Assembly (NCBI GenBank): GCA_902602415.1
Contig: CACKQW010000012.1
Location: 1 to 38,762, forward strand
Length of the DNA stretch: 38,762 nucleotides
Source: an uncultured Bacteroidota bacterium
Lineage (GTDB): Bacteria > Bacteroidota > Bacteroidia > Flavobacteriales > Flavobacteriaceae
Direction of reading: 5' to 3'
Position 1 is the first letter of the stretch, and each line of letters starts with the position of its first letter. Under the pieces are notes generated by a model. It searched no databases. It was not told where the DNA came from and saw nothing but the letters and a program-made list of their open reading frames with translations. Shown here one piece after another: positions 16,884 through 29,024 of the stretch. Position numbers and translations under genes: made by a program.

Positions 16884-17072
16884 ATGAAAAAAATACTTGA
16901 AGTTTATTATCCTATTATAATAGCATTTATATGCATGATTTATTCTATCTCACTAGGCCTATCGGGAAATATTGCCGAGGCTCAATATTCAGCTCATTGG
17001 CCTGGAACAATTTTATTATTTGCAATTGCTATTCGTCAGAGAAGAAAAGATTTTAATAACAAAGAAAAATAA
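16884..17072 (+). CDS. Small membrane protein
   Basis: 62 residues with two hydrophobic stretches (about 9-28 and 39-52) and a basic C-terminal tail (RQRRKDFNNKEK). It starts with ATG one base after the DoxX-like gene stop. I do not recognise a family. The tight packing between two other small membrane genes supports it being a real gene rather than a chance frame. Confidence 0.65.
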   Translation: MKKILEVYYPIIIAFICMIYSISLGLSGNIAEAQYSAHWPGTILLFAIAIRQRRKDFNNKEK

Positions 17073-17073
17073 C

Positions 17074-17265
17074 ATGCTTAGTCCATTAATGTTTATAGTA
17101 GGCTTTGTCATCTTTTTGTTGTATATGAGTGGATTATTATATATGATTAAAAAATCACATGATGATCAAAAAAGGAAAAGAATGAAGAACCCTGAAACAA
17201 AAAACTATGATCAAAATGATTATGATGGTGGAGGGAATTGGGGAAGGTTTGAAAATGATAGATAA
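17074..17265 (+). CDS. Small single-span membrane protein
   Basis: 63 residues from ATG 17074. One transmembrane helix near the N-terminus (about 4-24) is followed by a very polar tail with KKSHDDQKRKRMK and an Asn/Asp/Gly-rich end. A longer frame to 16972 exists but would overlap most of the previous gene, so the ATG right after the previous stop is chosen. No family recognised. It is the last gene of the oxidoreductase operon; 168 bases then separate it from torF. Confidence 0.6.
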   Translation: MLSPLMFIVGFVIFLLYMSGLLYMIKKSHDDQKRKRMKNPETKNYDQNDYDGGGNWGRFENDR

Positions 17266-17396
17266 TATGAGTAAAAATGCTGTTTATAAAGTTTTTTTTC
17301 ATAAATCCATAATTTTAACCCCTTAATTTTATCATATCTTCAAAAATTTACTCATTCTTAAATTATTGAATGCCCCATCTGAAGTTTTTTTTTAAT

Positions 17397-17406
17397 TTGG
17401 CGCCAA
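17397..17406. promoter_or_regulatory. Perfect palindrome upstream of torF, possible operator
   Basis: TTGGCGCCAA is a perfect 10-bp palindrome 27 bases upstream of the torF start, in an otherwise very AT-rich spacer. Its GC-rich centre stands out against the background. Operator function is inference; a ten-base palindrome can also occur by chance. Confidence 0.3.
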
Positions 17407-17433
17407 TTAATAATTTTAACTAAAACAAATAAA

Positions 17434-18051
17434 ATGAAAAAAATAACTACATTATTTATTTTACTATTTAGTGCTGCTTCGATCGCTCAATCAATTAGTG
17501 TTGACATGACAAATAAGTACATATGGAGAGGTGCTGACTTAGGAGGTTTTTCTATACAACCATCAATGTCAACTGAAGTTGGTCCTGTTGAAGTTGGGGT
17601 ATGGTCTAGCTATGCTTTAAATGACAACTCTTTATCTGAACTAGATCTTTATGTTTCTGGTTCAATTGGGTCTTTTGATTTAGCAGTAACAAACTATTAT
17701 TTTCCTGGAGCTACAACTGATGGAGCGCTTGATTTTGCTGGAGGATCATTAACTGGTCTTGAAGGTTCGATCGGAACAACGCTTGGAAGCTTTTCAATTA
17801 TGGGAGCTTACTTTTTTGATGGTGAAGACACCTATGTTGAAGTAGGTTATCCATTGGGTGGTTTTGACGTTGCAATTGGTGCTGGTGATGCAGGATATTC
17901 CGTAGATGGTGAATTTGCTCTTGTAAATGTATCTTTATCAACTGGTAAAGATATTAAGATTACTGAAGACTTTAGTCTACCTCTTTCTGGAAGCTTAATT
18001 TACAACCCTGACACTGATATTATGTATGTAGCTGTCGGAGTTAGTCTATAA
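17434..18051 (+). CDS. TorF-type outer-membrane beta-barrel protein
   Basis: 205 residues with a cleavable signal peptide ending near residue 18 (FSAASIAQ). The mature start, SISVDMTNKYIWRGADLGGFSIQPSMS, is the signature of the TorF/putative porin family, followed by alternating beta strands (VEVGVWSSYAL, ELDLYVSGSIGSFDLAVTNYYFP) and a C-terminal strand ending in aromatic/hydrophobic MYVAVGVSL. It should be an outer-membrane barrel. In Bacteroidota members are often found beside ammonium transport or glutamate synthase genes, as here with gltBD, suggesting a role in uptake of nitrogen compounds; the substrate is unknown. Confidence 0.82.
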   Translation: MKKITTLFILLFSAASIAQSISVDMTNKYIWRGADLGGFSIQPSMSTEVGPVEVGVWSSYALNDNSLSELDLYVSGSIGSFDLAVTNYYFPGATTDGALDFAGGSLTGLEGSIGTTLGSFSIMGAYFFDGEDTYVEVGYPLGGFDVAIGAGDAGYSVDGEFALVNVSLSTGKDIKITEDFSLPLSGSLIYNPDTDIMYVAVGVSL

Positions 18052-18070
18052 AACAATTATATTATATGAA

Positions 18071-18098
18071 AAAAAGCGCCTTTTGGCGCTTTTTTTTT
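18071..18098 (+). terminator. Rho-independent terminator between torF and gltB
   Basis: AGCGCC (18075-18080) and GGCGCT (18085-18090) pair around a TTTT loop, with A-T pairs extending the stem, and a run of T continues to 18098. It lies just 20 bases before the gltB start codon. It is nearly symmetric, but there is no gene close by on the minus strand for it to serve. Confidence 0.88.
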
Positions 18099-18117
18099 CC
18101 AAATTACTAATAATCAC

Positions 18118-21100
18118 ATGTTAAAAAAAGGGCTTTACAATCCAATATTTGAACACGAAAATTGTGGTGCTGGTTTCATTTGTAGTCTGAATGGAATCAA
18201 ATCAAATGACATAATAAATAAAGCTCTTAATATTTTGACAAGATTAGAGCACAGAGGTGCTGTTAGTTCTGATGGAAGAACCGGAGATGGTGCTGGAATC
18301 CTGATAGATATTCCTCATGATTTTTTCAAGAAAGTTTGTGAATTTAAAATTCCTAATGAAGGTGACTATGCTGTAGGAATGGTCTTTTTACCACAAAGAG
18401 CGCAACAAAATAAAATTTGCAGACAGACTTTTGAAAATGAAATTGAAAAACAAAACTTAGAAATTTTAGGCTGGAGAGATGTGCCAGTTGATAGTAGGGC
18501 TGTCGGAAGAGTTGCAAGTACTTGCCAACCAGTGATTAAGCAGGTATTTATCAAAAAAATTGATGATGCCAATTTATTTAGAGCCAAACTATATACTGCA
18601 AGAAAAATTGCAGAAAATAAAATTTATAAGTCTGAACTTTCTCAAAAACAATATTTTTATTTTTCAAGCTTAAGTACAAAGACTATCATATATAAAGGTC
18701 TATTAATTCCAGAGGATATTGATAGATTCTATTTAGATTTAAAAAACCCATTGTTCGTAACTAAATTAGCACTTGTTCATCAACGTTTCTCAACAAACAC
18801 ATTTCCAACATGGGATCTTGCCCAACCTTTTAGATACATGTGTCACAATGGTGAGATCAATACATTAAAAGGCAATATAAGCAGGATGAAAGCACGTGAG
18901 GAGCTGTTAAGTTCTCCTTTGATCAGCAAGGATGATCTAAATAAAGTCTTACCTATCATTTTACCAGGAAAATCTGATTCAGCATCCATGGATATGGTTG
19001 TTGAACTTTTATTGATTTCAGGTAGGTCTTTACCTGAAATTATGATGATGCTAGTTCCTGAAGCATGGGAAAAGCATAATTCCATGTCTAATGTGAAAAA
19101 GGCATTTTACAAATACAATAGTAATATTATGGAACCATGGGATGGCCCAGCATCAATACCTTTCACTGATGGTGATTATATTGGAGCTGTTTTAGACCGA
19201 AACGGCCTAAGACCGTCTAGATATACGGTAACCAATGATGGATATGTTATCATGTCCTCTGAAACTGGTGTTGTGGACATTGAACCTAAAAATATTAAGT
19301 ACCATGGTAGACTTGAACCAGGTAAAATGTTTCTTGTTGATATGGTTAACGGAGAAATCGTTAATGATACAGAAATAAAAAATAAAATTTGTTCAAAACT
19401 ACCTTACAAAAAGTGGAATAATGAAAATACTTTGAATCTTTCTGAAATTCCCTACAAAAAAAGCCTTCAAAATAATGAAGCAACGGATTTTGAAACAAGA
19501 TTAAAAGTATTTGGATACACGCAAGAAGACATAAAAAAAATCATTCTTCCCATGTGTATAAAAGGTAAAGAACCTATTGGATCTATGGGAACTGATACCC
19601 CCTTGGCAGTACTATCAAAAAAACCACAATTATTATATAATTATTTTAAGCAATTATTTGCACAAGTAACCAACCCCCCACTAGATGGAATTAGAGAAGA
19701 AATAGTCACTGATACTAGTATGTCCATAGGAAGTGACGAAAATATTTTTGAGTTAATTCCAAATCATGCAAAAAAATTAACTATTAAAAATCCTATAATT
19801 TCAAATCAGGATCTATACAAAATTAAATCTATTGAACATAAGGACTTTAAGTCAAGATCAATAAGCGCATTATATGAAATAAAGAAGGGGCACAACGGAT
19901 TAGAAGAAGCTCTTGAAAATATAGTAAACGAAGTAGAATATTCTGTTGACTCAGGTTGTAATATTATAATTATTAGCGATAGGAATATTAATGACCTAAA
20001 AGCACCAATTCCTGTTTTACTGGTTTGTTCGTATGTTCACCAGTCTATGATCAGAAGAAACAAAAGATCAAAATTTGGTATTATCATTGAATCAGCAGAA
20101 CCAAGAGAGCCACATCATTTTTCAATGCTATTCGGATATGGTGCCAGTGCAATTAATCCATATTTGGTTAACGAAGTTATCTCTTATCACCACAGTGAGG
20201 GAAAGTTTGGAAATAATACTATTGAAAAGTCAATCTTGAATTACAACAAGGCTATTGCAAATGGTGTGTTGAAAATCATGAATAAGATTGGTATTTCAAC
20301 GTTAAATTCTTACAGAGGATCACAAATTTTTGAAGCACTTGGACTTCGATCAAAGTTTGTGGATAAATACTTTAAAAACACTCCAACTAGAATAGAAGGA
20401 ATTGGACTTTACATAGTTGAAAAAGAAATATCAGATCGATTCAATTTTGCATTTTCTTCAAATAATTTATCATTAAATGTTGGTGGTGATTACAGATGGA
20501 GAAGAAATGGTGAGGCCCATCTGTTTAATCCTTCTACAATTTCTAATTTACAAAATGCAGTTCGACTAGAGAATTACGAAGCCTACAAGAAATATGCATC
20601 CTTAATTAATGATCAAAATGAGCAACTGATGACAATTAGAGGAATGTTGAAATTTGTGAATCATGACCCAATTTCAATTGATGAAGTAGAACCATGGACC
20701 GAAATTGTTAAAAGGTTTAAAACCGGTGCAATGTCTTATGGTTCGATAAGCAAGGAAGCACACGAAAACTTAGCTATCGCAATGAATACTATTGGCGGTA
20801 AAAGTAATTCAGGTGAAGGTGGTGAAGATAGTATCAGGTTTCAAAGCGAGAAAAATAGCTCAATAAAACAAGTCGCATCAGGAAGGTTTGGTGTTAGCTC
20901 TAATTACTTGACCAATTCTGATGAAATCCAAATTAAAATGGCACAAGGTGCAAAACCTGGAGAAGGAGGACACCTTCCCGGTCCTAAGGTAAACCCTTTG
21001 ATTGCAAAAGTCAGAAATTCTACTCCCTACGTTGGATTAATTTCTCCTCCCCCACATCACGATATTTATTCTATTGAAGATTTAGCTCAACTAATTTTTG

Positions 21101-22587
21101 ATCTCAAAAACGCCAATAGAAATGCAAAAATCAATGTAAAATTAGTTTCAAAAGCTGGAGTGGGAACAATTGCAGCAGGAGTTGCGAAAGCCAAAGCAGA
21201 TATCATATTGATCTCTGGATATGATGGAGGAACTGGTGCCTCTCCACTGACTTCTTTAAGACACGCAGGACTCCCATGGGAGTTGGGTATTGCTGAAGCA
21301 CAACAAACTTTAGTTTTGAATGATTTAAGATCTAGAGTCAAAATAGAATGTGATGGTCAATTAAAAACAGGTAGGGATGTTGCTGTTGCATGCTTATTGG
21401 GTGCTGAAGAATTTGGTTTTTCAACAGCTCCTCTGGTAGCTTCAGGTTGTATTATGATGAGAGCATGTCATCTAAACACCTGTCCAGTAGGAATAGCTAC
21501 GCAAGACCCTGAACTAAGAAAAAACTTCAAAGGTAAACCTGAACACGTGATAAATTTTATGTATTTCGTTGCTAGTGAACTAAGAGAAATAATGGCAAAA
21601 CTAGGTTTTAGAACAATTGACGAAATGATTGGTAAAAGTCAATTTCTTAAAATGAAAGAGGATATCCAGGAATATAAATTCAGAGGCATTAATCTTGATA
21701 AAATTTTATATAAACCAGATCTTAATGAAAAAATTGCCATCAGAAATACAGAAAAACAAAACCATAATTTAGAAAATGTACTTGATTTTAAAATTTTAAA
21801 AAAATCAAGACTATCAATTGAAAAGAAAATCAAATTACAACTAGATTACAAAATCAAAAATACGGATAGAGCTGTTGGGGCGATCATTAGTAACGAAATT
21901 TCAAAACTGTATGGTGAAAAAGGTCTCCCAAAAAATACACTTAATATTGATTTCTATGGATCAGCTGGACAGAGTTTTGGTGCATTTACAACTAAAGGAA
22001 TAAAATTCTCATTATACGGAAATACAAATGACTACCTTGGTAAAGGACTTTCTGGTGCAACTTTAGTTGTTAAAAAACCCAAAAATGCAACCTTCAAGTC
22101 TCATAAAAATATTATTACAGGAAATGTTGCTTTGTATGGTGCTATCAATGGTGAGGCTTACATTAATGGTATAGCTGGAGAAAGGTTTTGTGTTAGGAAT
22201 TCCGGAGCAACTGCAGTTGTTGAGGGGGTTGGGGACCATGGATGTGAATATATGACAGGTGGAAAGGTGGTTATTCTAGGGTCTATTGGAAGAAATTTTG
22301 GGGCTGGTATGAGCGGTGGTATCGCATACATTTATAAAAAATCTCTTTCGGAAAAAAATTTTAATATGAACATGATTGAAATTGAATCATTAGATGATCA
22401 CGATTACATTGAATTACTAAATATGATTAAAAATCATTATTCAAACACAAATAGTGAAATTGCAGAAAAAATATTATCTGATTGGGATGTAGCAAGAAAG
22501 TTATTTGTTAAAGTAATGCCTACTGAGTATAAGAATGCACTGAAAAAAATTGAGGAACTGAAAATTGCTGAATTGATGAATAAATAA
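18118..22587 (+). CDS. gltB: Glutamate synthase (NADPH) large subunit
   Basis: 1489 residues, the alpha subunit that converts glutamine and 2-oxoglutarate to two glutamates. The N-terminal amidotransferase domain shows ENCGAGF, where Cys16 should become the N-terminal nucleophile after removal of a 15-residue propeptide, then LEHRGAVSSDGRTGDGAG. The FMN-binding synthase domain includes GGEDSIRF, KPGEGGHLPG and SGYDGGTGASP. The [3Fe-4S] ligands are C1111, C1117 and C1122 (C-x5-C-x4-C). The C-terminal beta-helix has repeated G-x-x-G segments. It overlaps gltD by one base. Its transcription must either pass the terminator upstream or begin within the last 20 bases before the ATG. Confidence 0.98.
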   Translation: MLKKGLYNPIFEHENCGAGFICSLNGIKSNDIINKALNILTRLEHRGAVSSDGRTGDGAGILIDIPHDFFKKVCEFKIPNEGDYAVGMVFLPQRAQQNKICRQTFENEIEKQNLEILGWRDVPVDSRAVGRVASTCQPVIKQVFIKKIDDANLFRAKLYTARKIAENKIYKSELSQKQYFYFSSLSTKTIIYKGLLIPEDIDRFYLDLKNPLFVTKLALVHQRFSTNTFPTWDLAQPFRYMCHNGEINTLKGNISRMKAREELLSSPLISKDDLNKVLPIILPGKSDSASMDMVVELLLISGRSLPEIMMMLVPEAWEKHNSMSNVKKAFYKYNSNIMEPWDGPASIPFTDGDYIGAVLDRNGLRPSRYTVTNDGYVIMSSETGVVDIEPKNIKYHGRLEPGKMFLVDMVNGEIVNDTEIKNKICSKLPYKKWNNENTLNLSEIPYKKSLQNNEATDFETRLKVFGYTQEDIKKIILPMCIKGKEPIGSMGTDTPLAVLSKKPQLLYNYFKQLFAQVTNPPLDGIREEIVTDTSMSIGSDENIFELIPNHAKKLTIKNPIISNQDLYKIKSIEHKDFKSRSISALYEIKKGHNGLEEALENIVNEVEYSVDSGCNIIIISDRNINDLKAPIPVLLVCSYVHQSMIRRNKRSKFGIIIESAEPREPHHFSMLFGYGASAINPYLVNEVISYHHSEGKFGNNTIEKSILNYNKAIANGVLKIMNKIGISTLNSYRGSQIFEALGLRSKFVDKYFKNTPTRIEGIGLYIVEKEISDRFNFAFSSNNLSLNVGGDYRWRRNGEAHLFNPSTISNLQNAVRLENYEAYKKYASLINDQNEQLMTIRGMLKFVNHDPISIDEVEPWTEIVKRFKTGAMSYGSISKEAHENLAIAMNTIGGKSNSGEGGEDSIRFQSEKNSSIKQVASGRFGVSSNYLTNSDEIQIKMAQGAKPGEGGHLPGPKVNPLIAKVRNSTPYVGLISPPPHHDIYSIEDLAQLIFDLKNANRNAKINVKLVSKAGVGTIAAGVAKAKADIILISGYDGGTGASPLTSLRHAGLPWELGIAEAQQTLVLNDLRSRVKIECDGQLKTGRDVAVACLLGAEEFGFSTAPLVASGCIMMRACHLNTCPVGIATQDPELRKNFKGKPEHVINFMYFVASELREIMAKLGFRTIDEMIGKSQFLKMKEDIQEYKFRGINLDKILYKPDLNEKIAIRNTEKQNHNLENVLDFKILKKSRLSIEKKIKLQLDYKIKNTDRAVGAIISNEISKLYGEKGLPKNTLNIDFYGSAGQSFGAFTTKGIKFSLYGNTNDYLGKGLSGATLVVKKPKNATFKSHKNIITGNVALYGAINGEAYINGIAGERFCVRNSGATAVVEGVGDHGCEYMTGGKVVILGSIGRNFGAGMSGGIAYIYKKSLSEKNFNMNMIEIESLDDHDYIELLNMIKNHYSNTNSEIAEKILSDWDVARKLFVKVMPTEYKNALKKIEELKIAELMNK

Positions 22588-24044
22588 TGGGAAAACTGAA
22601 AGGATTTAGCGAATTTGACAGATTAGATGAAAAATATATTTCTGTCAAATCTAGAATTAAAAACTTTAGAGAGTTTACCGTAAAACCCTCTGATAAAAAA
22701 ATTCAAGAACAAGGAAGTAGGTGCATGGATTGCGGCGTTCCATTTTGTCATAGCGGGTGCCCCTTAGGAAACCTGATCCCGGACTTTAATGATGCAGTTC
22801 ACGAAGGGAAATGGGAAGAAGCGTTATCAATTTTACATACAACTAATAATTTCCCTGAATTTACTGGCAGGTTGTGCCCTGCCCCTTGTGAGGCTGCATG
22901 TGTTCTAGGTATTATCAATCCGCCCGTTTCCATTGAGTTAATTGAAAAAAATATTGTTGAAAAAGGATTTGAGAATGGCTGGATTCAGCCAAATCCACCT
23001 GAAAAACGCACAGGAAAAAAGATTGCTATAATAGGTTCTGGACCAGCAGGTCTTGCTGCTGCACAACAATTAAATTTTGCTGGTCATCTAGTTGAAGTTT
23101 ATGAGAGAGATTCAAAAATAGGAGGATTACTTAGGTATGGTATTCCTGATTTTAAACTTGAAAAAAATGTCATTGATAGAAGAATTGACATCATGCAAAA
23201 AGAAGGGGTAATTTTTAAAACAAATATTGAAATTGGCAAACAAATTACAATTGAGCAATTGAAAAAAGAATTTGATATTGTTTTGTTATGTACGGGAGCA
23301 ACAATTAAAAGAAATTTACCTATTAAAGGCCAAGAACTTTCTGGTGTTATTCAAGCTATGGATTTTTTAAAAAAACAAAACCTAGTTGTTGACTCACTTG
23401 GAACTAAAGAAGAGCATCTTAATGCAAAAAATAAAAATGTGATTGTTATAGGTGGTGGTGATACAGGATCTGATTGTATTGGCACAAGCGTAAGACAAGG
23501 AGCCAAATCCATAACAAATTTTGAAATTATGCCTAAGCCCTCTAAAACAAGGACAAAAGATAACCCATGGCCATACTGGCCATTTACCCTAAAATCAAGC
23601 TCATCTCATGATGAAGGAAGCAACAGGAAATGGTCCATAATGACTAAAGAGTTTATTGGCAATAAAGAAGGTAAGCTTACTGGATTAAAAACAGTAGAAG
23701 TTGAGTGGATTACCAATCCTGAAGGAGAAAAAGAGCTTGTTGAAAAACAAAATAGCGAGAAAATTTGGGACTGTGATCTCGTTTTGCTTGCTCTTGGCTT
23801 CACTGGTCCAGAAGACAAAGTACTTGCAGGATCTGATATTAAAATAGACTCTTTCAATAAGCCTATTACCTCTAAATATATGACTTCGGACAATCAAATT
23901 TTTGCAGCTGGTGATAACAGAAGGGGCCAATCTTTAATTGTATGGGCAATTTCTGAAGGAAGAGAAGCTGCCTATGAAATTGATAAATTATTAATGGGTG
24001 CTACCTCACTCAGAACTAAACTCAAAGGTGATCTTGTAAAATAA
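22587..24044 (+). CDS. gltD: Glutamate synthase (NADPH) small subunit
   Basis: 485 residues, the beta subunit that passes electrons from NADPH through FAD and two [4Fe-4S] clusters to GltB. Cluster cysteines are visible as C46, C49, C54, C58 and C97, C101, C105. The FAD-binding motif IIGSGPAGLAAAQQL lies near residues 148-162 and the NADPH-binding motif VIVIGGGDTGSDC near 284-296; the C-terminal FAD motif FAAGDNRRGQSLIVWAISEGR is also present. Start ATG overlaps the gltB stop (TAATG), so the two subunits are translationally coupled. Confidence 0.98.
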   Translation: MGKLKGFSEFDRLDEKYISVKSRIKNFREFTVKPSDKKIQEQGSRCMDCGVPFCHSGCPLGNLIPDFNDAVHEGKWEEALSILHTTNNFPEFTGRLCPAPCEAACVLGIINPPVSIELIEKNIVEKGFENGWIQPNPPEKRTGKKIAIIGSGPAGLAAAQQLNFAGHLVEVYERDSKIGGLLRYGIPDFKLEKNVIDRRIDIMQKEGVIFKTNIEIGKQITIEQLKKEFDIVLLCTGATIKRNLPIKGQELSGVIQAMDFLKKQNLVVDSLGTKEEHLNAKNKNVIVIGGGDTGSDCIGTSVRQGAKSITNFEIMPKPSKTRTKDNPWPYWPFTLKSSSSHDEGSNRKWSIMTKEFIGNKEGKLTGLKTVEVEWITNPEGEKELVEKQNSEKIWDCDLVLLALGFTGPEDKVLAGSDIKIDSFNKPITSKYMTSDNQIFAAGDNRRGQSLIVWAISEGREAAYEIDKLLMGATSLRTKLKGDLVK

Positions 24045-24076
24045 TCCGTTTTAAGACATAAATTTCAATTCACTTA

Positions 24077-24107
24077 TTGTATTTAGAGAAAAAAAAATTT
24101 ATTTTCG
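24077..24107 (+). promoter_or_regulatory. Putative promoter of the MerC-domain gene
   Basis: TTG (24077-24079), a 20-base spacer and TATTTTCG (24100-24107) match the Bacteroidota pattern with one deviation in the -7 element. The predicted transcript start is within about 5 bases of the ATG, so the mRNA would have almost no leader. Confidence 0.5.
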
Positions 24108-24116
24108 CACATCATT

Positions 24117-24524
24117 ATGAATTTATCCATTAAATATTCTGATAAAGTTGGAGTTGTATCAAATATACTTTGCATGCTGCACTGCTTTGCGACTCCATTT
24201 ATTTTCTTTTCCCAAACTCAAACTGTGCATGTTGGTCATGATGTGCCTTTTGCCTGGCAAATAATTAATTATTTTTTTATCACCGTTTCTGGAATTGCAG
24301 TGTATTATTCAGCAAAAAACTCAACAAATAACACTGTTAAGTTGTTAATAGTTATTTCTTGGTCAATACTTTCTTTTTTAATTATTAGTGAAGGATTACA
24401 TTTAATGCACTTACCAGAAATATTGACCTATTTATCAGCTTCTTTTTTATCTTTTTTACACATTTACAATTTAAAGTATTGCACGTGTAATGATGAAGAA
24501 TGCTGTATCCATGAAAAGAAGTAA
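24117..24524 (+). CDS. MerC-domain membrane protein
   Basis: 135 residues with about four transmembrane helices (near 10-30, 45-63, 72-92 and 97-115). The first helix contains the MerC metal-binding motif C19-M-L-H22-C23. The C-terminal tail adds YCTCNDEECC, a cysteine cluster that could bind a metal. MerC proteins were described as mercury transporters, but in Bacteroidota single MerC-domain genes occur without mer operons, so metal uptake or handling of unknown specificity is the safest call. It has its own putative promoter and converges on the T9SS gene with an 11-base gap. Confidence 0.8.
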   Translation: MNLSIKYSDKVGVVSNILCMLHCFATPFIFFSQTQTVHVGHDVPFAWQIINYFFITVSGIAVYYSAKNSTNNTVKLLIVISWSILSFLIISEGLHLMHLPEILTYLSASFLSFLHIYNLKYCTCNDEECCIHEKK

Positions 24525-24535
24525 GGTTCTCCCTA

Positions 24536-25816
24536 TTAGTCTTTTACTATTTTATGTATAGAATTATTTGCCCCATCAAAAAGGTGCAGAAAATAAATCC
24601 CTTTTTCCAGCTTACTAATGTCCATATCTTTCTTTACTTTCTTTTTAAATACTTGCTCACCAATTGAATTAAAAATAATAGCATCAAATTCAATATCACT
24701 ATTTAAAAAAATATTTCCAGATGAAGGAATGGGATATATCAAATTACTCAATAGTACATTTTCTTGAATACTTAAAGGAGATCCAAAAAAAACATTATCA
24801 AAATAAAATATAGTGTTTTGATTTCCTGGATTACCAAAATTGAAAAAAATTGATGCTTTATTAAAATAGAAATTTGTATTAAGCTCCTGTGTTCCATCCA
24901 CATGATTGGAAAAATCAAATTCCATTGTTTCCCACTCCCCACTTAAAGTAGTAAAACTATCTGTTTCTACAGATTGGGTTGGATCATTAGAATTTTCAAT
25001 TTTTAGTCTAATGGGAATCCCTATCTGATCAGTTCCAGAAACATAAATATCAGCGTAAATCTTGGTATCTGTATTGCTAACTGGAATTTGATTTAAAAAT
25101 CCAGCTCCAGACCCAATTGTTAATCCAGCCCAGCTTTCGGCACCTGGATTTTTCTCAACTCTAGCGTAATTACCATCAACTGTTTCTAGAATTGTAGACG
25201 GACCATTCCCTCCAAAATCTGTTAAAACATAATACACACTAGGATCATCAAATGTTACAGGTAAATCCATTTGAACAAGTCCTTCACTAGGATCGGACTG
25301 AAAAATATTATCAAAATAAAAAGTTGAATCTAAGGATCCGTCACCAATATTTCCAAAATCGAACATCAATACAAGTTTTCTATATGTGTTTGATGCTTCT
25401 CCAGAGAAATCCCATGATAATGTTTCCCATTGATTTGAAGAAGTAGTGTAAGCATCCCTTTCAGTGGCTGGTTCAGAGGGAAAATCTCCCTGATCACCTT
25501 CAATTTTAAATTTTACTAACAAACCAGGGTAAGGAGATAAAATTTGCATATTCAAGGTTGTATTTTCAGAAAAATCGAGGTAATCATCCAGTTCTAAATA
25601 ACTACCTGCCCAAATATCCCCTCCATCACGGATTATAACACCAACCTTTTCACTTGGGTTATTATCATCAACCTGAGGATTAAAGACAACATAACCTGAA
25701 CCACCATTAAAAAAAATAAAATCCTGATTAATTATTTGATTATTTTCAAAATCTATAGGTAAATTAATTTGAGAAAAAGAAAGTAAGGGTATAAGTAAAA
25801 TTAATATTTTTTTCAT
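24536..25816 (-). CDS. T9SS-secreted protein with two tandem beta-sandwich-like modules
   Basis: 426 residues. A signal peptide (about 1-16, ILLIPLLSFS) is followed by two similar modules of about 160 residues, roughly 17-178 and 186-345. Each begins LP-DF/TFD, contains a WAG-S/T-like strand, a QWETLSWDFSG / EWETMEFDFSN strand, and ends with FYFDNIF / FYFDNVF. The C-terminal 75 residues (LSNLIYPIPSSGNIFLN to KIVKD) are a type A sorting domain, so the protein is exported across the outer membrane by the type IX system and attached or released. The modules resemble carbohydrate-binding folds seen beside glycoside hydrolases, but no catalytic domain is present; glycan binding is inference. Confidence 0.8.
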   Translation of the reverse strand: MKKILILLIPLLSFSQINLPIDFENNQIINQDFIFFNGGSGYVVFNPQVDDNNPSEKVGVIIRDGGDIWAGSYLELDDYLDFSENTTLNMQILSPYPGLLVKFKIEGDQGDFPSEPATERDAYTTSSNQWETLSWDFSGEASNTYRKLVLMFDFGNIGDGSLDSTFYFDNIFQSDPSEGLVQMDLPVTFDDPSVYYVLTDFGGNGPSTILETVDGNYARVEKNPGAESWAGLTIGSGAGFLNQIPVSNTDTKIYADIYVSGTDQIGIPIRLKIENSNDPTQSVETDSFTTLSGEWETMEFDFSNHVDGTQELNTNFYFNKASIFFNFGNPGNQNTIFYFDNVFFGSPLSIQENVLLSNLIYPIPSSGNIFLNSDIEFDAIIFNSIGEQVFKKKVKKDMDISKLEKGIYFLHLFDGANNSIHKIVKD

Positions 25817-25978
25817 GAGATAAAATTAATATTTAGGTAAAAAAAATAAATCAGATTTATAAAAAAAAACTAATATTGATAATTTCTCAATTAAAATTAA
25901 ATCAAATAATAATATTTTTAAAAAATTTAGAAATTTCTTAAAGTTTTAACATCAATAAACTTTCAATAACGAAATCGA

Positions 25979-26011
25979 TTGAGAAAATATTATTTATTAG
26001 TTTTACATTTA
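25979..26011 (+). promoter_or_regulatory. Putative promoter of the lipoprotein gene
   Basis: TTG (25979-25981), a 22-base spacer and TACATTTA (26004-26011) resemble a Bacteroidota promoter, with one mismatch in the -7 element. It fits a start codon at 26035 rather than an in-frame ATG at 26011. Confidence 0.35.
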
Positions 26012-26034
26012 TGCAATATCAAAAATCTTATAAC

Positions 26035-26526
26035 ATGAACAAATTTTTTTACTTTATTTTAATTTTTGTGCTTTTAGCGTGTAATTCAGAAACTAATAAT
26101 GAAGTTTACACTGATTGTAACAACACATCTGAACCAATTATTGGATCTTGGCAATATTTTTATGATGAATATTATAATGAAGCTGATAATGAATGGACTG
26201 GAGAGAGTGATATACAATGTTGTATTATATTTAACTCAGACGGCACTTTTGAAGACTTAAATGGTGCTAGTGGTGATGATAGTACTATTGGTACTTGGGA
26301 AAATTTAGGAAATGGAACATATAGACTAAATGTTACTTCTGGTGTTCCTAATGTTCCTTTTGAGGTAGAATTTGGTATGGAATTCTTTTGCTGTGACAGT
26401 GTTATGAGATACTCTACAATAGCTGGTCAGAATTCTGACAATGCAGGATTAGCAGGATTTCAATATTTACACAGAGAGAATTATAACTGGCAATCTTGTG
26501 ATGATATACCCTTCAATTCTTTGTAA
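26035..26526 (+). CDS. Lipocalin-like lipoprotein
   Basis: 163 residues from ATG 26035. The N-terminus MNKFFYFILIFVLLAC is a lipoprotein signal with the modified cysteine at residue 16. The body has the pattern of small lipocalin-like proteins of Bacteroidota: IIGSWQY, then a IIFNSDGTFED strand and GTWENLGNGTYRLN. Two vicinal cysteine pairs (QCCIIF and FFCCDS) and two other cysteines (TDCNN and SCDD) could form disulfides in the periplasm or on the surface. A longer frame from 26011 would put eight residues before the signal peptide and is rejected. It is convergent with the next gene. Function unknown. Confidence 0.72.
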   Translation: MNKFFYFILIFVLLACNSETNNEVYTDCNNTSEPIIGSWQYFYDEYYNEADNEWTGESDIQCCIIFNSDGTFEDLNGASGDDSTIGTWENLGNGTYRLNVTSGVPNVPFEVEFGMEFFCCDSVMRYSTIAGQNSDNAGLAGFQYLHRENYNWQSCDDIPFNSL

Positions 26527-26556
26527 ATATTTGAGATAATTATATTGGATAGTATT

Positions 26557-26600
26557 TGAGCCAATGCCGAGAATTGAACTCGGGACCTCTTCCTTACCAA
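26557..26600 (-). repeat. Displaced tRNA-Thr 3' fragment (att-like repeat, distal copy)
   Basis: 44 bases identical to 27691-27734. It contains the anticodon loop, the 3' strand of the anticodon stem, the variable loop, the T arm and the 3' acceptor strand of tRNA-Thr(GGT), plus two bases beyond the tRNA end. After one mismatch four more bases match (GAAG), then similarity stops. The 5' half of a tRNA is absent, so this copy cannot make a functional tRNA. Confidence 0.92.
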
Positions 26601-26692
26601 AGAAGATATAAGGATATAAATCAAGATATTTTAAAGGAAAAGGTCAGCTGACACTCATTTGTTAATCTAAACTTTTTAATATGGTATGTTGA

Positions 26693-27565
26693 TTAAAAGT
26701 CAATTCCTTTATATTTAATTCTTCTTGGGTCATTCTCAAATTTATTTAACCAGTTTCTTTTCATCATATAACCGACTATTTTAAACTTAATTTTATCGGC
26801 AGATTTTACGTCTTTTTTTATTTTTTTCCACCAACTTTGTTTTTTATACCATTTTAACTCATATTTTGCCTTGATTTTTCTTTGGTATTCTAACTCGGAT
26901 TGCCAATTTTTGGGATCCGGATATTTTTGCATTGCTTCATACATTGCTCGACCTTCAATGTTAATTATATCAATAAAAGCTTGAATTTTATAATCTACAT
27001 CAAATGTATTGTATACTTCGAAAATTAATGGGTTTTCATCTTTTTTAGATTCCTCCTCAATCTCAATGTCAACTAAATCATTTTCCTCAATAGGTTCAGT
27101 AAAAAACTCATTTATTACAAATTGTGTTATTTTTCCAGTTTTATCCAATTCAACAATTGAGTAAGGTCGATTTGTAGTATCCATATTGTTGAGGAAAATA
27201 TAAATAGTTAGCTCATCATACATTTTATATGAATTAACTTTCCAATGCTTAAGAGCGGTTTGTTTTAAAATTTCTTCCGATTGTTTCTCACTTGATTTAA
27301 CTATTATTTTTTGTGTTGCCCTATTTTGTGTTTTTAAACCAATTTTTTCAATTGGCAATACACTGTAGTCTAAAGTTAGTATAGTGGAGGCATTACTTTT
27401 TGTCTGTTTTTTTTGTGTTGGTATTTCTTTTTGAATTTCCTTTTTTGGCTCATTAGTAATAGTTTCATCTGTTTCAAATTCATCTGTAAAAAAAGAAAAA
27501 ATTATTCCTAAGATTATCGGAATAACAAAAAAAATTATACAACCCCATTTCAGAATTTTTTTCAT
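26693..27565 (-). CDS. Membrane-anchored protein of unknown function
   Basis: 290 residues. One N-terminal transmembrane helix (about 8-27, following MKKILKWGC) is followed by an acidic and Lys/Gln-rich linker (about 30-62), then a predicted soluble domain and a strongly basic, Trp- and Lys-rich C-terminus (KWYKKQSWWKKIKKDVKSADK, 20 of which lie near residues 238-257). The Cys at residue 9 is not in a good lipobox, so a lipoprotein is less likely. I do not recognise a family. It is the only gene between the two tRNA-Thr repeats and is transcribed in the same direction as the tRNA cluster. Its start is an ATG at 27565. Confidence 0.65.
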   Translation of the reverse strand: MKKILKWGCIIFFVIPIILGIIFSFFTDEFETDETITNEPKKEIQKEIPTQKKQTKSNASTILTLDYSVLPIEKIGLKTQNRATQKIIVKSSEKQSEEILKQTALKHWKVNSYKMYDELTIYIFLNNMDTTNRPYSIVELDKTGKITQFVINEFFTEPIEENDLVDIEIEEESKKDENPLIFEVYNTFDVDYKIQAFIDIINIEGRAMYEAMQKYPDPKNWQSELEYQRKIKAKYELKWYKKQSWWKKIKKDVKSADKIKFKIVGYMMKRNWLNKFENDPRRIKYKGIDF

Positions 27566-27628
27566 ATTAATTAGTTTATTCTATTATCTTTTTGGTTCAA
27601 GCAAAATACAAAAAAAACGCCACTTTAC

Positions 27629-27648
27629 ATTTGACCTAAATTTGACCT
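27629..27648. repeat. Two ATTTGACCT direct repeats near the tRNA-Thr end
   Basis: ATTTGACCT occurs at 27629-27637 and 27640-27648, an 11-base spacing, about one helical turn. The reverse-complement core AGGTCA occurs at 26641-26646 near the other repeat, overlapping the palindrome GTCAGCTGAC (26643-26652). Both lie about 40 bases inside the 44-bp repeats. They could be arm-type recombinase sites or regulator sites; chance is possible. Confidence 0.35.
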
Positions 27649-27690
27649 TTAATTAAGAAAAAAAGATAGTTGAAAATGGCTTTTAACAGA

Positions 27691-27734
27691 TGAGCCAATG
27701 CCGAGAATTGAACTCGGGACCTCTTCCTTACCAA
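27691..27734 (-). repeat. tRNA-Thr 3' end copy of the 44-bp direct repeat
   Basis: The proximal copy lies inside the intact tRNA-Thr(GGT) and runs from two bases beyond its 3' end to the 5' edge of the anticodon loop. That extent is typical of tyrosine-integrase attachment sites in tRNA genes. Confidence 0.92.
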
Positions 27735-27764
27735 GGAAGCGCTCTACCACTGAGCTACACCGGC
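27693..27764 (-). tRNA. tRNA-Thr (anticodon GGT)
   Basis: 72-nt cloverleaf. Acceptor GCCGGTG pairs with CATTGGC (two G-U pairs). The anticodon stem CTTCC/GGAAG holds loop TTGGTAA, and the discriminator is T. It is the last gene of the Thr-Tyr-Gly-Thr cluster, and its 3' part is duplicated at 26557-26600. Confidence 0.97.
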
Positions 27765-28142: not shown

Positions 28143-29024
28143 TTACTTATTTCTTGGATGTGTTTTTTTAAAAACTTTTTTGATTTCTTCTATTGATCTA
28201 TTTGTATAAATTTGAGTTGCCGCAAGACTTGTGTGCCCAAGAAGGTCCTTAACCGAATTTAAATCAGCGCCATTATCCAATAAATGCGTTGCAAAACTAT
28301 GACGTAATATATGTGGACTTTTTTTTAATTTTGAAGAATATTTAGAGAAATACTTTTTGGTAACCCTATTGACTAAATTTTCATATATTTTTTTACCTCT
28401 TTTTGTTATTAACAGAAAATCTACATCCTTGATGTAATTAAGTTTATTTCTTTCCTCTAAATAAGTATTTAATAATTGAACCATACTATTTAAAATTGGT
28501 ATATATCTTTCCTTATTCCTCTTCCCTAAAACTTTAATCCTCCTATTTGATAAGTCAATATTATTTAGCTTTAAATTTATTAATTCTTGCCTTCTAACTC
28601 CGGTACAATAAAGAATTTCTAAAATTAAATTATCTCTGATACCTTCAAAATCTTTTCCGAAATTTTCAGAAGCTAATACATTTGAAACCTCTAATTTTGA
28701 AAATGGAATCTGAACAATTGATTTTGTCTTTAATGACTTGTGCTGATCTAACGGATTATTTTTATTGATTCCAACCTTTTTTAAAAATTTATATAAACTA
28801 TTCAGAGAGGATATTTTTCTGTTGATTGTCTTGTTTGAGATTCCTTTATTAACTAGTAAAACAATCCAGGATCTGATTTGAGAATAATTAACTTTTTTTA
28901 AAGATGACTGCTGAAATTCATCATTAATAAATTTTTTAAATGAGTTAATGTCGTTTTGATACGCAACAATGGTTTTTTGAGAATAGTTTTTCTCAATTTT
29001 TAAATATTCGAAGAATTTATCCAA
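28143..29024 (-). CDS. Tyrosine recombinase, XerC-like
   Basis: 293 residues. The SAM-like core-binding domain (about 1-85) is followed by a catalytic domain with the full set of residues: R144 in CTGVRRQE, K168 in VLGKRNKER, H238 and R241 in HILRH, H264 in LLGHTS and the nucleophile Y273 in QIYT. It fits the Xer family that resolves chromosome dimers at dif; the position next to rpsU matches a conserved Flavobacteriia locus. The frame has no ATG at its start; TTG at 29024 (LDKFFEYLKIEKNYSQKT read as Met first) gives the normal N-terminus. I see no dif-like site in the window. Confidence 0.9.
   Translation of the reverse strand: MDKFFEYLKIEKNYSQKTIVAYQNDINSFKKFINDEFQQSSLKKVNYSQIRSWIVLLVNKGISNKTINRKISSLNSLYKFLKKVGINKNNPLDQHKSLKTKSIVQIPFSKLEVSNVLASENFGKDFEGIRDNLILEILYCTGVRRQELINLKLNNIDLSNRRIKVLGKRNKERYIPILNSMVQLLNTYLEERNKLNYIKDVDFLLITKRGKKIYENLVNRVTKKYFSKYSSKLKKSPHILRHSFATHLLDNGADLNSVKDLLGHTSLAATQIYTNRSIEEIKKVFKKTHPRNK

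Follow-up and report, generated by a model that had tools for sequence, protein, structure and literature searches.

Single-gene cassettes beside tRNA-Thr(GGT) in a genus of small-genome Flavobacteriaceae, most likely added by integrases acting in trans

In the genome of an uncultured member of the Flavobacteriaceae the 3' end of a tRNA-Thr(GGT) gene occurs twice, once in the intact tRNA and once on the far side of a single gene. A sequence-only reading of the locus had proposed three explanations, a satellite moved in trans, a collapsed island or a scar, and the question is which of them applies. Comparison with relatives favours the trans satellite over the collapsed island, and the repeat marks an inserted cassette, not a scar. 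We put at about 0.78 the probability that the segment represents a small gene cassette, present here in one integrated copy, that is mobilised in trans and bears its own attachment site. The window analysed is the whole stretch of 38,762 nucleotides, contig C12 of a host genome of 1.27 Mb (28 contigs, 74% complete). Genomes and loci of relatives are given by G and L numbers.

The repeated tRNA half and its cargo gene

The two copies of the 44-bp repeat, at 26557-26600 and 27691-27734, agree with 0 mismatches, which bears out the perfect bracketing copy noticed in the sequence; the chance expectation for the 44-mer at up to 3 mismatches is 0.00 (100 shuffles). Similarity extends to 48 of 49 bases (26557-26605 and 27691-27739), the single mismatch lying in the 5' arm of the anticodon stem, which reads CTTCT in the orphan copy and CTTCC in the tRNA. 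The repeat runs from the opening base of the 7-nt anticodon loop (TTGGTAA) to a point 1-2 bases beyond the 3' end of tRNA-Thr(GGT), and these limits, also read from the sequence, agree with the tRNA positions of ARAGORN and Rfam. The features of the locus are as follows.

26557..26605, minus strand: displaced 3' half of the tRNA, or distal core, matching the intact copy at 48 of 49 bases
26601..26646, minus strand: 46-bp distal module, 45 of 46 bases identical to G307
26693-27565, minus strand: cargo gene for a 290-aa protein, the only ORF between the copies, in the same orientation as the tRNA
27597..27690, minus strand: tRNA-proximal arm, type A, 81 of 82 bp identical to G305
27629..27648, minus strand: tandem direct repeat of 11-bp period, AGGTCAAAT twice, putative integrase arm sites
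27691..27734, minus strand: tRNA-proximal copy of the 44-bp core, from the repeat comparison
27692-27764, minus strand: intact tRNA-Thr(ggt) by ARAGORN (27693-27764 in Rfam)
28143-29024, minus strand: xerC, given for context, the nearest recombinase gene to the cassette

Joined to the 5' half of the tRNA, the displaced half 26557..26605 still scores as tRNA-Thr(ggt). A scan of about 1.5 kb around 30 of the 31 tRNA genes of the same genome revealed a displaced 3' half only at tRNA-Thr(GGT). We infer that the intact tRNA-Thr(GGT) was the integration target and that its 3' half came with the cassette. The intact tRNA at one end and the identical 44-bp 3' fragment at the other are the arrangement of a tRNA-integrated element. 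An integrase gene inside the unit is lacking, as the sequence-only reading stated, and one 290-aa gene is all that lies between the copies; by its gene content the unit would be filed as mobilised in trans rather than as an autonomous element. The nearest recombinase gene, xerC, lies outside and probably does not belong to the cassette; it also adjoins the same tRNA cluster in all 16 loci of the genus that were compared.

The 290-aa protein has no match above cut-off in Pfam and none in NCBIfam or PADLOC, and its match to PHROG is confined to residues 1-46. The AlphaFold model (mean pLDDT 37.7) suggests, at low confidence, that a probable N-terminal helix serves as a membrane anchor. Elsewhere in 296 genomes the gene was found only in G308 (97% aa and 98.2% nt identity), the closest relative of the window genome. 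The two copies differ by 7 synonymous and 9 non-synonymous codons, xerC of the same genomes (91.3% nt identity) by 52 synonymous and 17 non-synonymous codons. Because the cargo is closer than xerC, the cassette may be younger, in the window species or in G308, than the split between them.

Cassette arrays in the genus

The hosts are small-genome, marine-type bacteria, and the genus was sampled with 21 genomes, one per species. The core (up to 3 mismatches) is present in 17 of them; it was not found in G275, G301, G302 and G304, all four of which are incomplete. Sequence downstream of the tRNA covers 16 of the 17, the contig of G300 ending at the tRNA. The usual gene order is xerC, tRNA-Thr(TGT), tRNA-Tyr, tRNA-Gly, tRNA-Thr(GGT) and two small native genes, continued in most loci by doxX-like and flavodoxin-like genes, tuf and tRNA-Trp. 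In the window and in G308 a gltBD/merC-like block separates the arrays from the native genes. In the window this block (17256-26556: gltB, gltD, a merC-like gene and a gene with a T9SS tail) is flanked by the small native genes (16884-17256) and by the displaced half; it is common to G308, partly shared by G314 and unmatched in the other loci of the genus that reach that far, and may have been inserted there at an earlier time.

Displaced halves occur in 8 of the 16 genomes, namely the window genome (G000), G305, G307, G308, G309, G313, G314 and G316; the search for further segments with the same 44-mer that the earlier reading called for yielded units with varied cargo. The other eight (G055, G299, G303, G306, G310, G311, G312 and G315) are without a displaced half, and empty sites, likewise called for, exist at the level of the genus, for instance in G055, G306 and G312. 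The second core of G299 belongs to an overlapping contig with native sequence; strain variation was considered for the contig ends of G299 and G300 at the tRNA and was dropped. G311 carries a type A arm without a displaced half and is probably a cassette that has lost its distal half.

In these 8 genomes the one tRNA is accompanied by 11 variable units, each ending in a tRNA fragment. Measured from loop to loop they are 1134 bp long in the window, 1121 bp in G308, 771 bp in G307, 4519 and 647 bp in G309, 1827 and 1444 bp in G314, 1344 bp in G313, 1363 bp in G316, and 1122 and 100 bp in G305. Nine hold one main gene (647-1,827 bp), one is the large element of G309 and one is a relic. Cargo and tRNA have the same orientation in 8 of the 9 single-gene units, the exception being an AIPR gene.

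Among the cargo of the other cassettes, G308 and G305 share an esterase-like protein whose best hit in Pfam, Abhydrolase_2 (E 0.0022), stays below the cut-off. Further cargo proteins are a DUF285 protein (3e-28), a TPR protein, a kelch protein with a T9SS tail, and a protein of 179 aa that matches no family. Among 296 relatives the esterase is otherwise met at 42-48% identity in 4 genomes and as weak partial matches in 5. Two further proteins are candidates by their resemblance to anti-phage defence proteins. These are the AIPR protein of G314 (L086 8056-9258; 6e-22; AbiU in PADLOC, 1.1e-14) and the PDC-S26 candidate of G316 (L088 10114-10692; 4.1e-37 over the 192-aa C-terminal part), whose frame stays open about 200 codons further upstream with a possible TTG start. 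The signal peptide shared by several cargo genes (MKKLILLLFIPL) was considered as a part of the shell and rejected, a gene elsewhere in the genus (G275) matching it over residues 1-24.

Around these genes the same ends recur. CATCT stands directly after the tRNA half in 11 units or remnants. The arms are of type A in the window, G305, G314, G311 and the second cassette of G308, of type B in the first cassette of G308, in G307, G313, G316 and the second unit of G309, and of a third type in the 4.5-kb element of G309. Strong matches to the type A and B arms in the 21 genomes lie only directly after tRNA-Thr halves; the next matches elsewhere are short, with E values of 3e-4 and weaker. At an offset of 42-46 bases the arm contains a direct repeat of 11-bp period. 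It agrees at 9/9 bases in 4 of 11 arms, three of them with AGGTCAAAT and the G309 element with GAACTTATA, and at 8/9 in three and 7/9 in two type B arms, and is absent, among the 11 arms scanned, from the second cassette of G308 and from G311. None of 11 controls (6 empty sites, 5 distal flanks) reaches 9/9, and four of them reach 7-8/9, at offsets 1-20 in T-rich stretches near the tRNA end; the arm-repeat counts are those of a scan without composition filter. Direct repeats of this kind resemble the arm-type sites of lambda-type integrases, and by this analogy they may be integrase sites here.

At the far end, the 46-bp distal module is common to 5 of the 10 distal ends compared (85-100% identical), and its carriers hold 4 different genes and both arm types. 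The ends without it are those of the G309 element, the second unit of G309 (L085), the second unit of G314 (L086), G313 and G316. The distance from the end of the ORF to the core is 16 bp in G316, 22 bp in G313 and 24 bp in the second unit of G309.

Insertion at the tRNA and transfer between species

In G308 an esterase cassette of 1,121 bp lies between the 290-aa gene and the tRNA. Its removal in silico, from loop to loop, leaves an intact tRNA and a sequence that agrees with the window in 196 of 199 aligned bases, so that the window represents the empty site for the esterase cassette. The alignment contains 13 gap columns, 11 of which are one copy of the arm repeat missing in G308. G308 has also lost the distal half of its window-type cassette, apparently by a small deletion, and the empty sites available for the window's own cassette are those at the level of the genus. 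The relatives thus provide empty sites within the genus and a clean boundary in the one-cassette difference between G308 and the window. The order in G308, with the cassette shared with G305 at the tRNA and behind it the one that lacks an arm repeat and the distal half, fits a succession from young to old starting at the tRNA.

Beyond the last displaced half, G307, G309, G313 and G316 continue with GGCTCT and the sequence of the native neighbour. An intact tRNA beside a cassette reads GGCTCATCTGT where native sites read GGCTCT, and with GGCTCATCTGT at the tRNA and GGCTCT at the far half, the tRNA 3' end now in use arrived with the cassette. The incoming half in G309 has another T-stem, AGGGA/TCCCT in place of CCGAG/CTCGG, with the pairing kept. 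Combined with the tRNA 5' half, 9 of the 11 displaced halves score as tRNA-Thr(ggt), 1 as tRNA-Ser and 1 as no tRNA. An unclean boundary and an ancestral tRNA pseudogene, named beforehand as what would speak against insertion, were both looked for in the relatives and neither was found. The reading as a satellite moved in trans is favoured by the empty sites, the clean insertion of one cassette in the sister species, the GGCTCT boundaries and the unrelated genes between the same ends.

The esterase cassettes of G308 and G305 are identical at 977 of 979 bp (99.8%) over the stretch that begins with the start codon and ends at the distal core, whereas xerC of these species is 71.2% identical. This match between distant species indicates that one gene moved recently between them. 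The arms of the two cassettes are of different types (71 of 93 aligned bases), so cargo and arms have been exchanged separately, and the presence of the same esterase behind different arm types points to reshuffling beyond simple integration. Between the window and G305 the noncoding arms are 98.8% identical (81 of 82 bp), compared with 71.4% for xerC and 79.0% for rpsU.

Cassettes are most likely added beside tRNA-Thr by integrases acting in trans, and single genes appear to travel individually by means of borrowed machinery. The attachment site of a cassette would consist of the tRNA-Thr 3' half from the anticodon loop, the arm with its repeats spaced 11 bp apart and the 46-bp distal module. 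Another element would supply the tyrosine integrase, which would join a circular form of the cassette to the tRNA by recombination in the anticodon loop; the copy brought by the cassette would replace the 3' half of the tRNA, and the old half would be displaced to the far end. Repeated events would add cassettes beside the tRNA, the array growing from the tRNA side while the older distal units decay. Against this explanation stand the negative search for a helper of the type A and B cassettes, the different arm type of the G309 element and the missing Pfam and PHROG match of its protein, the 5 of 10 distal ends without the module, the five arms in which the repeat is inexact and the two without it, the controls that reach 7-8/9, the esterase found behind different arm types, and the lack of a full displaced half at the loci examined outside the genus.

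The units could alternatively be collapsed islands, remnants of larger integrative elements after internal loss of the integrase and most genes, an explanation that we consider unlikely. It would account for the integrase-like element of 4.5 kb at the same tRNA in G309 and for the deletion-like appearance of the G313, G316 and G309 units, which are without the distal module and have ORFs ending 16-24 bp before the core; one esterase gene with two arm types also indicates that ends and cargo recombine. Collapse does not agree with the same two ends around different single genes, nor with one single-gene unit that two species carry at 99.8% identity beside different neighbours, both of which argue that the small unit itself moved, and neither intermediates nor remnants of phage genes were seen in the nine single-gene units. 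Homologous recombination, by which the halves would have arisen once and the cargo been swapped later between common flanks without an integrase, is less probable still. The arms and the distal module are conserved enough for such exchange, and the occurrence of one esterase with two arm types implies that recombination took place within the cassette, but the addition of units that bring a new 3' half to the tRNA (G308 compared with the window; the T-stem of G309) and the attachment-site-like arms would stay unexplained. An assembly artefact joining unrelated contigs at the repeat is very improbable: two G299 contigs do overlap at the tRNA, and the relatives are presumably single-cell genomes of marine plankton, whose amplification makes chimeras, but the same cargo stands beside the same tRNA in the independent genome of another species (G308) and displaced halves recur in 8 genomes.

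Candidate mobilisers, known systems and range

An integrase for the type A or B arms was not found; in the window genome, 74% complete, PF00589 gives XerC and XerD only, and this XerC scores 104 bits against the integron-integrase model, with a cut-off of 265. PF00589 also detects one further integrase elsewhere in each of the genomes G311 and G309, and two fragments with a stop in G305. The 4.5-kb element of G309 (L085 9383-13858) occupies the same tRNA-Thr site as the cassettes, with an arm type that differs from A and B, and encodes a protein of 597 aa that is unmatched by any Pfam or PHROG model. Matches to this protein in 8 other genomes cover about its residues 377-507, with E values from 8e-6 to 7e-4. 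The tyrosine-recombinase pattern ARHTFATT...LGH...Y is present at four of these loci (L098, L100, L101, L102) and absent from the last 150 residues at L099, and tblastn gave no match at the other three. With motifs in the G309 protein itself read by eye, it is a candidate for a divergent tyrosine-recombinase-like protein. Viral relatives of the core, the arms and the 597-aa protein were not found in IMG/VR (patterns and protein search) or in a phage collection, and viruses as carriers of the cassettes were dropped on these empty searches.

Published examples of tandem units targeted to tRNA or tmRNA genes come from Actinomarinales, Methylopumilus and Dehalococcoides, and the following comparisons draw on extracts of the papers cited. 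'Candidatus Actinomarinales' (PMC7771536) and fGI-2 of Methylopumilus (PMC10872708) have tRNA-targeted gene cassettes in additive flexible genomic islands. As here, the hosts are aquatic and streamlined, small cassettes stand at tRNA genes and a displaced piece of the tRNA marks the far end; units in Methylopumilus start from 330 bp and 1 CDS (PMC10872708), and transfer between genera at about 75% similarity is reported for Actinomarinales (PMC7771536). The present system differs in its Bacteroidota host and its defined shells, and the extracts of both accounts contain no shared arms, distal module, arm types or near-identical single-gene transfer. The tandem islands at ssrA in Dehalococcoides (PMC3146451) likewise stack at one RNA gene with 3' repeat ends, and some of their units are without an integrase and possibly cis-mobilizable; as extracted, they differ in their tmRNA target, serine recombinase and multi-gene content.

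Integron cassettes and CALINs (PMC11389934) are similar in that units of one gene accumulate at a single site, move in trans and are added next to the anchor. Unlike these, the attachment site here is a tRNA half, the genes stand in an armed shell and an integron integrase was not found. Tycheposons (extracts of PMC10872708 and PMC11389934) share marine hosts, tRNA sites and tyrosine recombinases, but measure 4-200 kb and carry a recombinase; the window cassette, with 1,134 bp and no recombinase, falls outside this class, and the 4.5-kb element of G309 comes closer in size. Cis-mobilizable elements (CIMEs; PMC3146451, in extract) are att-flanked DNA without recombinase that is mobilised by a relative at the same site, and the window cassette has the same build, attL/attR flanks with neither recombinase nor transfer genes. 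In the known cases of CIMEs and of ICE-IME tandem accretion, as far as the extracts describe them, the helpers are conjugative; the units here are of a single gene. The open-licence literature, from which subscription papers are largely missing, yielded no recognised account of such shells in Bacteroidota. Compared with the systems above, the new features are shells that can be exchanged, distinct types of arm, and the transfer of a single gene in near-identical form.

Movement of single genes among streamlined ocean bacteria is poorly known, and the locus offers a testable route: its attachment site is defined, its shell can be used again, and one gene has moved between distant species with two differences over 979 bp. 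Hydrolase-like and secreted proteins and two defence-like proteins (AIPR/AbiU-like and PDC-S26) are among the cargo. If the arm repeats decide which helper pairs with which cassette, sequence alone, through the arm types, would suffice to predict exchange networks. Tentatively, and at somewhat under even odds, the system could be a tRNA-anchored counterpart of integrons, in which a standard shell with exchangeable single-gene cargo, anti-phage defence genes included, is moved between species by arm-reading integrases of separate elements and the arm types act as compatibility groups.

Beyond the genus, a 41-base core (up to 3 mismatches) is present in 89 of 299 genomes of the family, a sample with only 3 genomes of the genus, and is doubled only in the window genome. 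The arm pattern occurs in 3 of 397 family genomes, namely in the window and at two places without a tRNA (ARAGORN; L106 alone was read). A full displaced half was found at none of 43 tRNA-Thr(ggt) loci from 38 genomes, one of them of the genus (G055), 30 of the 43 loci reaching at most 1.5 kb downstream. In other genera a 24-nt partial copy of the tRNA-Thr 3' end lies about 110 bp downstream of the tRNA (L024 1391), an insertion of 1.2 kb separates tRNA-Gly from tRNA-Thr (L035 8651-9878), and one of 6.4 kb separates tRNA-Tyr from tRNA-Gly (L036 10139-16529).
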